From positions 1 through 64,000 of the forward strand of contig CANRMP010000001.1 in assembly GCA_947631765.1 (NCBI GenBank): a stretch of DNA of 64,000 bases, in the 5' to 3' direction. A program made the position numbers and the translations under genes. This document shows, piece by piece, positions 22,713 through 26,175 of the stretch. The first letter of the stretch is position 1, and each line of letters starts with the position of its first letter. Under the pieces are notes generated by a model. That model had not been told where the DNA came from. It made no database searches and saw only the letters and a list, made by a program, of their open reading frames with translations. The stretch is from an uncultured Clostridia bacterium. GTDB lineage: Bacteria > Bacillota > Clostridia > Oscillospirales > CAG-272.

Positions 22713-24566
22713 ATGATATACCGCTCAAAAGGATGCGACAGCAGTACAGTACACTATATCGGCAACGGCAGAATGATAGTATGCGAAAACGGTGCCGACA
22801 TTCAAAGCATACGCGGCTCGGCTTATTCGTCGCCTATTTTCGGCTCGCTTAAAATCAAGGATGTTATGGAGAGTGAAACCTATCGTGAAAAGGACAGACT
22901 GTCCTACCTCCACTATATCTGTTTCGAAAGGCAAGAGAGCCTTGCCTTAGATGCGTTCGACTGGGATGCCGAAATAACCGATTTCATACATCCCGAAAAG
23001 CAGGTGTTTTGCAGATACCTTTGTTGCAGGGACGAGTGCGTAATGCACCTTGAAACGCCGGGCTATGTGAAAAAGTTCAGATATCCCGAGAGCAGAAAAA
23101 ACAAAACGCCCGAGCTGTTTTTATATATAATTCCCTCAGGTACCGAATATTATGAAGGGCTGTTTTGCCAAAAGGAAATAAGGATGCTAATTGCCGCTCT
23201 CGGTGAGGTTGAATGTGACGGAGAGTATTTTAAATTCGGAGTGGGAGACTCATGTCTCTTAATTGCCGCCGGCGACCCCGAGGAATGTGCCGCCGGTATG
23301 AAATACGCCTTAAAATGCGCTTCAAGGGATTGCAGCGCTGAGGATAACGAAATATACAAAGCCTCCCTTGAGCATTTTGAAAAGCTTGCAAAGAACTGCC
23401 CCGACGAGGCAAGCGAAACGCTTTTCTCCCTTCTTGCAAGGCAGTCCTCGGACGGCGGGATTATGGCAAGCGACAGGCAACCGTTGTCGGATATCAACTG
23501 CTTTTACTATGCCATAAGGGCGTTTGAGTCTTTGTCGCTTTATGAAAACAGCGAAAGGCTTGTAAACTATTACATAAACGCAGTCAATAAGAGCGAAAAC
23601 ACATATAATACCTACAACGGGCTGAACACAAACGCTTATATACCCGATATTTCGGGCGGCGGGGCGGCGGCTTGCCTTATGCTCGGCCTTATCGCATATT
23701 ATGAAAATCACGGCATGAAGCGCGAAGACGATATTTTTCTTCGCAAGCTCTTTTACTTTTTGATGTCAGACAGGGCGATTGAAAAAGGAGTTTCCTCCTT
23801 TACAGGGCGGGAGGCTGAATTTGACGCAGGTATAATCGAGAGGCTCAATATTTTAGTATCGGGCAGTGCCGAGGTGAGCGCCCGAGTAATTGCCGCATGT
23901 CGCAAATATATTGAGCTTGCAAATGAGAAGAAGCTTAAAGTACGTTCGCTTTTTGGAGCTACCGTGCAAAGGCTTGAGGAAAGCGCCGAAAAATTCCGCG
24001 AAAGATTCATATTTGAAGGAAAGCTTTATTCAAGCTGTCTTATGCCTAACGGAAAAATGAAAAAGCAAAGCTTTATTTATTCAAGATGTCCAGAATGTGA
24101 AAGGGAAGGGAGAAGCGCGCCGCTTACATGGCTTGAAAAGCACTCCTCGGGCAGATATTTGTGCAGTTTTTGCATTTTGACGGCGGATTCACTGTCGCCG
24201 CGTATTGTAAATAGGTCATTCCAACTTTCAAGCGTATGCGTGAGTCTGCTTTGCGGCTTGGTTTTCGGAAAAACCGAGCATGACATGCTTGAGCTTGTTA
24301 AAGCGCGGGCAGAGCAATACGTCAAGGACATTTCGGCAATTCCGATGCGATGCGCAAGGGAGGATATGCTTGTTTCAACGGTGCTTGAAAAATACGGTAT
24401 TGAATCCGAAAGGTATAATGAAGTGCTGTGCGATATTGCCGACGAGGCGGGCTGTTTTTCAACCTATCTTTGCGGCGAAAAGGGGCTTGGAAGTCTGGGG
24501 GACAGCTATCCCACGGCGATGTATCTTTGCAGATTACTCTCATTTCAACAAAAGAAAAAAGAATAA
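22713..24566 (+). CDS. Unknown 617-aa protein, possibly (alpha/alpha)6-toroid, with CxxC pairs
   Basis: No family recognised with confidence. The first about 200 residues are beta-rich and begin with VHYIGNGRMIVCENGADIQS. The middle and end (about 230-600) are helical with repeated aromatic, Gly and Ser-rich turns (SDINCFYYAIRAFESL, PDISGGGAAACLMLGLIAYYE, and SLGDSYPTAMYL), an arrangement seen in glycoside hydrolases of the GH15/glucoamylase-like six-hairpin type. Inside the helical part lies CPECEREG (about 457) followed some 24 residues later by CSFC, a probable zinc-binding insert. There is no signal peptide, so it would act in the cytoplasm. ATG 22713 has AAAGGA upstream. The gene ends at a strong terminator. 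A cytoplasmic glycan-processing role is only a structural guess. Confidence 0.55.
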   Translation: MIYRSKGCDSSTVHYIGNGRMIVCENGADIQSIRGSAYSSPIFGSLKIKDVMESETYREKDRLSYLHYICFERQESLALDAFDWDAEITDFIHPEKQVFCRYLCCRDECVMHLETPGYVKKFRYPESRKNKTPELFLYIIPSGTEYYEGLFCQKEIRMLIAALGEVECDGEYFKFGVGDSCLLIAAGDPEECAAGMKYALKCASRDCSAEDNEIYKASLEHFEKLAKNCPDEASETLFSLLARQSSDGGIMASDRQPLSDINCFYYAIRAFESLSLYENSERLVNYYINAVNKSENTYNTYNGLNTNAYIPDISGGGAAACLMLGLIAYYENHGMKREDDIFLRKLFYFLMSDRAIEKGVSSFTGREAEFDAGIIERLNILVSGSAEVSARVIAACRKYIELANEKKLKVRSLFGATVQRLEESAEKFRERFIFEGKLYSSCLMPNGKMKKQSFIYSRCPECEREGRSAPLTWLEKHSSGRYLCSFCILTADSLSPRIVNRSFQLSSVCVSLLCGLVFGKTEHDMLELVKARAEQYVKDISAIPMRCAREDMLVSTVLEKYGIESERYNEVLCDIADEAGCFSTYLCGEKGLGSLGDSYPTAMYLCRLLSFQQKKKE

Positions 24567-24590: not shown

Positions 24591-24628
24591 AAAAGCAGAA
24601 AAACCCGAAAACGGCTTTTCTGCTTTTT
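24591..24628. terminator. Hairpin between convergent genes
   Basis: AAAAGCAGAAAA (24591-24602) pairs with TTTTCTGCTTTT (24616-24627) across a 13-base loop, with T-rich ends on both strands, so it can act both ways. Confidence 0.7.
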
Positions 24629-24668: not shown

Positions 24669-25109
24669 TTAAGTGCGGCGGAAAGCTCTTTTTACAAGAT
24701 GCCAAGCGCGGCAAAACAGGGCGCGTACGGGACGGCTTGCCACTCGCAATCTGGAATAGATAACAATCGAAGTCGAGTCCATACGGATATATTTTTCACC
24801 TTTAAAAAAGCCGTCAAGCTTTCCGAGAATCATATCCCGTCTGACTCCGTATTCCTTGACGTACTGACCGTCGCCGCAAAGCACAAAGCTGTTCTTTTGC
24901 TTTTTTATGACCCTGTGCAGTACGTACTGCCCGTTATCTCTTTTGTAGAAAATAACGTCGTATTTTTTGATTTTTTGCCCCTCGGACACAGGCAGAATGA
25001 CAACCGTGTTTTTTCTGTCCCCAAGCATCGGGACCATGCTTTTTCCGCCGGGCGTGAAGATGAGCTTTTTTTGAGTTTTCAGCAGCTCCTCATACCTGTT
25101 TTCATTCAT
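24669..25109 (-). CDS. Soluble S26/S24-type peptidase of the kinase/PqqD cassette
   Basis: A 146-residue protein of the signal peptidase-like fold. The nucleophile box GKSMVPML gives Ser24. The second catalytic segment reads KKYDVIFYKRDNGQYVLHRV, with His65 where bacterial signal peptidase I has Lys, as in the SipW/ER-type Ser-His enzymes. CGDGQ near residue 78 matches the later GDN-type box. There is no membrane anchor before the Ser box and only a weak hydrophobic patch at the end, unusual for a signal peptidase. The gene overlaps the PqqD gene by 8 bases and is the last of three. It may cleave a leader peptide or a specific partner; this is an inference. Confidence 0.72.
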   Translation of the reverse strand: MNENRYEELLKTQKKLIFTPGGKSMVPMLGDRKNTVVILPVSEGQKIKKYDVIFYKRDNGQYVLHRVIKKQKNSFVLCGDGQYVKEYGVRRDMILGKLDGFFKGEKYIRMDSTSIVIYSRLRVASRPVRALFCRAWHLVKRAFRRT

Positions 25110-25404
25110 CTTCTTCCTCGGCGGGCATATCGGAATCTTCCTCGTCAATAACGTCCGCCAAAATCAGCTTGTTTAAAAATGCGTCCACGTCACGCGATGC
25201 TATGTCCCTTTCAACGTCATAGGTTGCAAGCATGAGTGAAATAAGCTCTTCTTTTGTGGCTCCCTTTGAGAGAGCTTCCCAAAGCAGCTTTCCCGAACCG
25301 TTAAGGGTTATGTAGCCGTTGAACTTTTCGGCTGCCTTACCTACGGCAATGATTACTTCCTGTCCGCCTATCTCTTTGGCAACGAAGCCGGGTTTAACTA
25401 TCAT
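25102..25404 (-). CDS. PqqD-family protein (RiPP recognition element-like)
   Basis: A 100-residue protein with the PqqD winged-helix-like fold: FVAKEIGGQEVIIAVG, then ITLNGSGKLLWEALSKGATKEELI, and a C-terminal helix ending LNKLILADVI before a very acidic tail (SDMPAEEEDE). Family knowledge: PqqD-type proteins bind the leader part of a precursor peptide and present it to modifying enzymes in RiPP pathways. ATG 25404 overlaps the kinase stop codon (ATGA), so translation is coupled. No precursor peptide or radical SAM maturase is visible in the neighbourhood, which leaves its partner open. Confidence 0.8.
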   Translation of the reverse strand: MIVKPGFVAKEIGGQEVIIAVGKAAEKFNGYITLNGSGKLLWEALSKGATKEELISLMLATYDVERDIASRDVDAFLNKLILADVIDEEDSDMPAEEEDE

Positions 25405-26132
25405 AAATTATTATTACCTTCCTTTGTAAGTGTATTGTAAGACAGAATCGCCGCCTCGTCGGAAATATCACAGCCTATTCTGTACAGAGGAACATTTTTA
25501 AGCATAATATTCAAAAGGTCAATCGTTAAAAACATGAGTTCGGAGTTTTTCGGTCTGTAAATCTGATTGAGCATCATGGCAATTTCATCCTTGGGAGCGA
25601 CCCTTTTGACGTACAGCTCCTTTGAGCGGGTTATAATGCCAATTCCCCCAAGCGGGAGAACCACATTGCTTGAAAGCTCGTGCTTTCCGCACCACGGAGT
25701 GCCGCAGGCATAAACCTTCCCGTCGGATATTTTAATAATCGGTTTGTCGTCGTTTACCATAAAGGTGTTTGGAAAATTTCCGCGCCAGAGAGCGGCGTGA
25801 GTGCTTTTGCCCGTACCGCTCGGGGCGGTGAAGGCGTATGCAGAGCCGTTTGCGGCAATAACCGAGGCGTGCATTAAAAAGCAGTCATGCTTTATCAGCT
25901 TTTCGCAAAGGCTGCGATAGATTGCAAGGTATTCGCTCTGCTCTGTCGGCAGATCAAGCTTTTGCTCCCTTTCGGCGGCAATTTCGTCTTCAAGGTACTT
26001 TTCGTCAAAATCTATGACAATATCGGGCTCCCTGTCGTCCTTGCAGCCGTACTTGTCGGTATGGGAGCTAAGAATTATATTGTCTTTTTGCACTTTGACA
26101 ACAAAGCCCGCAATAGAAAGCATGGTACTCAT
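25401..26132 (-). CDS. HPr-kinase-like P-loop protein
   Basis: A 243-residue ATPase/kinase of the HprK/PEP carboxykinase-like fold. The Walker A loop APSGTGKST is at about 103-111, preceded by a conserved His (FLMHAS, His88), and followed by VNDDKP (about 127-131), the Asp pair expected to bind metal, and CGTPWCGK (about 153-160). It is shorter than true HPr kinase and lacks the HprK N-terminal domain and the C-terminal hexamer region, so it is unlikely to act on HPr. Related short kinases occur beside PqqD-like proteins in lasso peptide and other RiPP clusters, where they phosphorylate the peptide. ATG 26132 follows AAAGGGG. First gene of the three-gene unit. Confidence 0.78.
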   Translation of the reverse strand: MSTMLSIAGFVVKVQKDNIILSSHTDKYGCKDDREPDIVIDFDEKYLEDEIAAEREQKLDLPTEQSEYLAIYRSLCEKLIKHDCFLMHASVIAANGSAYAFTAPSGTGKSTHAALWRGNFPNTFMVNDDKPIIKISDGKVYACGTPWCGKHELSSNVVLPLGGIGIITRSKELYVKRVAPKDEIAMMLNQIYRPKNSELMFLTIDLLNIMLKNVPLYRIGCDISDEAAILSYNTLTKEGNNNL

Positions 26133-26146
26133 AAAGACCCCTTTTT

Positions 26147-26175
26147 ATTATAATATATTATTTCTCATTTTGCAA
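26147..26175 (-). promoter_or_regulatory. SigA promoter for the kinase/PqqD/peptidase unit
   Basis: Minus strand TTGCAA (26175-26170), 17-base spacer, TATAAT (26152-26147), 15 bases upstream of the kinase start. It shows that the unit need not depend on the ABC operon upstream. Confidence 0.65.

Follow-up and report, generated by a model that had tools for sequence, protein, structure and literature searches.

What might a kinase, a leader-binding module and a leader peptidase act upon when no peptide is encoded beside them? The question is raised by a self-contained set of three genes in the window, the 64,000-nucleotide stretch of DNA from a gut-type Clostridia genome that was analysed as a whole. 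The genes and the signals that flank them are as follows.

24591..24627, minus strand: terminator-like hairpin 3' of the peptidase gene, with 15 pairs (5 G-C) and a T-rich tail (suggestive only)
24669..25109, minus strand: soluble S26-type Ser/His peptidase, an LppS-like leader-peptidase candidate of 146 amino acids from its ATG (conserved residues and model)
25102..25404, minus strand: PqqD-family discrete RiPP recognition element (RRE), LppB-like, 100 amino acids (PF05402 and family profile)
25401..26132, minus strand: HprK/PEPCK-fold protein kinase, LppK-like, 243 amino acids (conserved residues and AlphaFold model)
26147..26175, minus strand: promoter-like site TTGCAA-17-TATAAT, 5' of the kinase gene (consensus match only)

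The layout agrees with an earlier, sequence-only reading of this DNA: the kinase and PqqD genes overlap in an ATGA (25401-25404), the PqqD and peptidase genes overlap by 8 bases (25102-25109), and the trio has a promoter-like site of its own. Seven such sites were found compared with 2.8 +/- 1.6 in shuffled sequences, hence the site before the trio is suggestive. All three open reading frames (ORFs) are complete and retain their full set of active-site residues. The upstream neighbour, according to Pfam, closes an ABC-2/GldG/DUF4340 operon which had been put forward as a possible partner of the trio. As an exporter or partner this operon was dropped, since the promoter-like site separates it from the trio and it is absent beside the trio in those neighbourhoods of relatives that were printed. 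Downstream, a 617-amino acid protein without any Pfam match (22713-24566, plus strand) is convergent with the trio. A PADLOC search for defence systems gave no match of note.

The kinase is related to HPr kinase by the fold of its catalytic domain only, as judged from model comparison. Its AlphaFold model (pLDDT 95.6) superimposes on two enzymes, PEP carboxykinase (1j3b; Z 12.9, rmsd 3.7 over 216 residues) and HPr kinase (3tqf, Z 12.5; 1ko7, Z 11.8, rmsd 2.6). The nucleotide-binding residues are invariant among 43 homologues, in which H88, the Walker A residues G106/G108/K109/T111/H112, the N127-x-DKP131 segment and a GTP-x-x-G motif do not vary. Profile matches are weak. An identity as HPr kinase/phosphorylase (HprK) was rejected in that Pfam returned no match to the HprK families, and membership of the HprK-related kinases A/B was likewise rejected, since TIGR04352 and TIGR04355 (NCBIfam) require 200 bits and the scores were near 20. 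The latter kinases and their PqqD relatives form a distant kinase and PqqD pair that resembles the present one in both members.

Turning to the PqqD protein, its score of 57.4 bits against PF05402 is well above the Pfam cut-off of 23.4, and it is the sole PF05402 protein in the genome. The family profile matches the solved RREs TbiB1 (5v1u, 1.8e-12), TfuB1, PbaB1 (9x90, 7e-7) and LppB (9x8z, 2.3e-6). The surface residues with which an RRE holds a YxxP leader are conserved; in the alignment, D70 and F74 of LppB, which hold the leader Tyr/Pro, correspond to D72 and F76. The peptidase has weak matches in profile searches, and its model (pLDDT 95.7) falls on the folds of signal peptidase SpsB, Sec11C and LexA-type proteins (best E 5.9e-4). 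It has no N-terminal membrane anchor, and its Ser-His pattern is of the Sec11/SipW type. Conserved across the family are S24-M-x-P, H65-R and G79-D80, of which G79-D80 is invariant, with E86 nearly so; the catalytic set of LppS is S29, H68 and D93. In one related locus (L036:10060-11574), an S26 peptidase is fused to an NTP transferase in a single protein of 504 amino acids, supporting a joint function for these two enzymes.

The same trio has been described as LppK, LppB and LppS in the linear polyphosphorylated peptides (LPPs), encoded by lppA-K-B-S-D-N in Paenibacillus alginolyticus (Popov et al. 2026, PMC13381572), so that the novelty anticipated for a kinase-based peptide system does not hold. 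The LPP core consists of an HprK-like kinase (LppK), a discrete RRE (LppB), a SipW-like leader peptidase (LppS), an MsbA-like exporter (LppD) and an NTP transferase (LppN), with gene functions established by deletion and mass spectrometry (PMC13381572). When the kinase gene was deleted, phosphorylation was lost; when the peptidase gene was deleted, the leader stayed in place; and the RRE was required for presentation of the YxxP leader. LppK accepts serine only, an S3T variant not being phosphorylated; LppN had no activity in the published host, and the role of LPPs is stated to be unknown (PMC13381572). The window likewise encodes together an HprK-like kinase, a discrete PqqD-type RRE and an SpI-type peptidase of the SipW/archaeal type, and in the same gene order. 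Its locus is a reduced set of K, B and S, with neither an exporter gene nor an NTP transferase gene; both are present in sister loci. In trans, the genome has a single PF14907 gene for an LppN-like protein (NTP_transf_5, 384 amino acids; G000:C4:157036-158190, equivalent to L226:8037-9191). This protein has no model in NCBIfam and stands alone on contig C4, with no RiPP gene beside it.

A second family, the paeninodin-type phosphorylated lasso peptides (PadeK/ThcoK), also combines an HprK-like kinase, a PqqD-type RRE and an NTP transferase with a leader-bearing peptide; however, it has a WxxP leader and the cysteine peptidase B2, where the present system has YxxP and an S26 peptidase. A lasso peptide was rejected here: PF13471 reached only 22.5 bits against a cut-off of 26, at an unrelated place in the genome, and no lasso macrolactam synthetase was seen among the genes adjoining the trio.

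Sister loci offer candidate precursors: upstream of their kinase genes, ORFs of 30-56 amino acids share the start MKxxYxxPExEVIxFExEDVITTS and vary at their ends. Such YxxP-leader peptides precede the kinase in about one third of these loci. A hidden Markov model (HMM) of the leader recovers about 40 of them in 111 loci, nearly all upstream and on the kinase strand, and reversed sequences used as a control gave nothing better than E = 1. The sequence-only reading had noted that no precursor is adjacent to the trio. For the whole 64-kb window this stands, since the leader HMM detects none there; for the genome it does not, as a whole-genome search finds three leader peptides in trans (C1:162174-162308, C17:3443-3571 and C2:33326-33454). 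They read MKLEYEAPVAEIEVFETEDVLAISIAPKGEKGKLTPITWDDFIQ, MKEVYEAPEAEIEILETEDVLSISIVKDEKGHLSELDWKDLK and MKLEYEAPKAEIEILETEDVLAISIVKEEKGSLKELNWSDLK, have 42-44 amino acids with the pattern MKxxYEAPxAEIExxETEDVLxIS..., and are each preceded by a good Shine-Dalgarno sequence. The nearest lies 136 kb from the trio on the same contig, in contrast to LPP precursors, which are encoded inside or near the biosynthetic cluster. Comparison of the three gives pN of 0.15-0.24 against pS of 0.67-0.82 and a dN/dS of about 0.1; with pS near saturation and pN this low, they are real peptide genes under selection.

Across 83 aligned peptides, D19 and S24 are each conserved in 97%, S24 never being replaced by Thr, and position 5 is Tyr or Phe in 99%. 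The leader motif is YxxP-x6-[FL]-x3-D-[VI]-[IL]-x-x-S; the peptides have no model in NCBIfam, and a text search of the literature gave no match to the motif. With this variant motif, the peptides qualify as YxxP-leader precursors with a phosphorylatable serine soon after the leader. The published LPP motif is YxxPxVLxHQxIxFETxxS (PMC13381572). Both leaders have the YxxP, but the present one replaces FET by an invariant Asp and has a serine at P+16 (Ser24) rather than at P+15 (core Ser3). Owing to this different motif, the sites of cleavage and phosphorylation could differ as well. Mining for LPPs mapped Bacilli genomes, and its second scan looked for Px9Fx[T/A] within 5 kb around each cluster (PMC13381572). 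Since Px9Fx[T/A] is absent here and the scan extended only that far, it would miss these precursors; in general, genome mining in cis alone passes over precursors of this kind.

On this evidence, and with a probability of roughly 0.77, the trio forms the central maturation machinery of an LPP-type RiPP pathway that has its precursors encoded in trans. Most of the defining LPP features that could be tested are present while the linkage of precursor to maturase is not, and for this reason the system is filed as a trans-acting, multi-precursor variant that is paired with secreted proteins. What is new is that the precursors of an LPP-type maturase are dispersed and each paired with a secreted protein; the kinase-RRE-peptidase trio itself was already known.

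The distribution of the genes across genomes bears directly on this assignment. A kinase-profile search of genome contigs found at least 585 relatives in Clostridia, many of them adjoined by PqqD and S26 genes, and the gene order of the trio is conserved far beyond chance. Many of the loci that were fetched have the order kinase-PqqD-S26-exporter-NTP transferase of the LPP set, the full K-B-S-ABC-NT loci including L070, L090, L104, L113, L127 and L128. Beyond the published map of Bacilli, the LPP-type family thereby gains these Clostridia loci, at least 585 in number. Among 196 genomes of the bacterial family, the peptide was detected in 82 and the kinase in 103 (threshold E < 1e-55): 79 have both, 3 the peptide only, 24 the kinase only and 90 neither (Fisher p = 6e-29). 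The 24 kinase-positive genomes without a peptide are so at the sensitivity used. By genus, the corresponding counts are 44, 0, 6 and 21 (p = 5e-13). The genus of the present genome contains both kinds, with kinase and peptide together in G000 and G004 and neither in G001-G003. The sequence-only reading had named conservation of the trio without a co-occurring short gene as the outcome that would speak against it. The opposite was found, and together with the three trans peptides this supports its proposal of a kinase, leader-binding module and leader peptidase that act on a peptide encoded elsewhere.

It is quite improbable that the trio is a non-working LPP remnant from which the genes for exporter, NTP transferase and precursor have disappeared, and that the dispersed peptides belong elsewhere. 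The D and N genes and a cis precursor are indeed absent from the window. Yet the three ORFs retain all of their active-site residues, the peptides are under purifying selection and track the kinase both between genomes and inside genera, and the genome has an LppN-like gene in trans.

In the present genome, each peptide gene lies 17-22 bp 3' of a gene whose product carries a signal peptide (503, 941 and 515 amino acids). The pairing is one to one: the three secreted proteins share a C-terminal domain that occurs in exactly three copies in the genome and in no other protein. Pfam has no name for any of the three. Among sampled trans loci, 28 of 43 peptides lie within 60 bp after a gene of at least 390 amino acids, compared with 15 of 176 control genes from the same stretches. 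The proteins that precede the trans peptides are diverse, comprising a GH88 hydrolase, an esterase, transglutaminase-like, pectate-lyase-like adhesive and Ig-like proteins. Conversely, proximity to the kinase is rare, in that 135 of the 150 listed peptides (90%) lie on another contig or at a distance of over 10 kb, although contig breaks mean that a few of the 135 may be nearer than they appear.

Taken by themselves, these positions would suit small partner subunits of the secreted proteins, tied to those genes instead of to the trio, with the link to the kinase reflecting a shared lineage or surface lifestyle. We consider this unlikely. The leader bears the YxxP motif of an RRE ligand, the same peptides stand directly 5' of the kinase in sister loci, kinase and peptide are concordant within genera that hold both kinds of genome, and the peptides have no signal peptide of their own.

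A second C-terminal domain provides a further view of the pairing. This unnamed domain of about 55 amino acids (TYSxxxY...LxxAxYxYGxSAxxYA) ends at least 9 peptide-linked secreted proteins. It is seen in L199, L189, L187, L050 and other loci, on diverse secreted proteins that are mostly directly 5' of leader peptides. When 98 genomes were searched for this domain alone, 25 of the 26 domain-positive genomes were also kinase-positive (p = 4e-7). Among the domain loci fetched, 20 of 30 encode a same-strand leader peptide, nearly always immediately 3', and 13 of 23 do when the seven seed proteins are set aside. Because peptide-linked proteins were used to build the domain model, these counts support the first observation and are not independent of it. 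Two different C-terminal domains of secreted proteins are thus genetically paired with leader peptides.

Lipoproteins beside several sister trios (L065:8124-8225 and L065_6, L090, L033, L050, L070, L072 and L080) carry tails of the [ED]LPxVP type. These tails resemble the cores of short leader peptides; for instance, a peptide ending ...GELPFVPAE is next to a lipoprotein ending ...IELPFVPAF. A strict LPx[VI]P tail occurs in 5 of 25 lipoproteins near a trio and in 0 of 54 lipoproteins far from one. Such core-like tails might suggest that the kinase and PqqD protein serve another substrate, for example such a lipoprotein or an envelope polysaccharide enzyme, with the S26 protein as a regulator-like peptidase and the PqqD protein working outside RiPPs. 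For the present trio this is very improbable: no such lipoprotein is adjacent to it in the window, the YxxP-holding residues of the RRE are conserved, and the genome encodes YxxP peptides.

If the trio is an LPP-type maturase acting in trans, a sequence of steps can be proposed by analogy. The PqqD-like RRE would bind the YxxP leader of the 42-44 amino acid peptides, with the leader as an added strand. The HprK-fold kinase would then phosphorylate the conserved Ser24 of the presented peptide; that this residue is serine in 97% and never Thr is in keeping with a serine-only LppK. The soluble S26 peptidase would remove the leader just before or at Ser24, near residues 21-24, and the LppN-like NTP transferase on C4 may add a further group. 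This chemistry is inferred, as are the route of export and what the pairing does. Outside the cell, the modified peptide most likely acts jointly with its paired secreted protein, because the precursor forms a two-gene unit directly behind the gene for that protein. More tentatively, the peptide could be a dedicated partner of the secreted protein, such as a phosphorylated or nucleotidylated tag or anchor that binds to, or is joined to, the C-terminal domain. In that case many secreted proteins of Clostridia would depend on the trio as a general system for sorting or surface attachment, rather than as an antibiotic pathway, a possibility that we regard as doubtful at present. Dispersed and often multi-copy precursors behind secreted enzymes and adhesins point to a function at the cell surface.

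A maturase with scattered precursors has a parallel in the prochlorosins and the SyncM-ProcM lanthipeptides of Synechococcus, in which, to our knowledge, the precursors are not paired with secreted proteins. There too, one promiscuous maturase serves many leader-bearing precursors in a genome, but the chemistry is different and the leader is of the Nif11 type (PMC10783134, PMC9872173).

In three genomes, peptides but no kinase were detected, among them G210, which is 51% complete, and G200, which is 94% complete. The latter contains seven leader peptides (C51:17288, C27:22354 and others), and its missing kinase may reflect either incomplete assembly or loss of the maturase. A separate RiPP type with a related kinase (L058-L060, L062) was set aside from the present one. 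Genomes with only this radical-SAM-type kinase have the leader peptide in 0 of 10 cases. Its loci L058:8225-8473 and L060:10651-10896 combine a radical SAM/SPASM protein, a PqqD protein and a distantly related kinase with a precursor of 81-82 amino acids (MKKxYxKPxVxFExxSxxTxIA...), which is encoded beside very large surface proteins.
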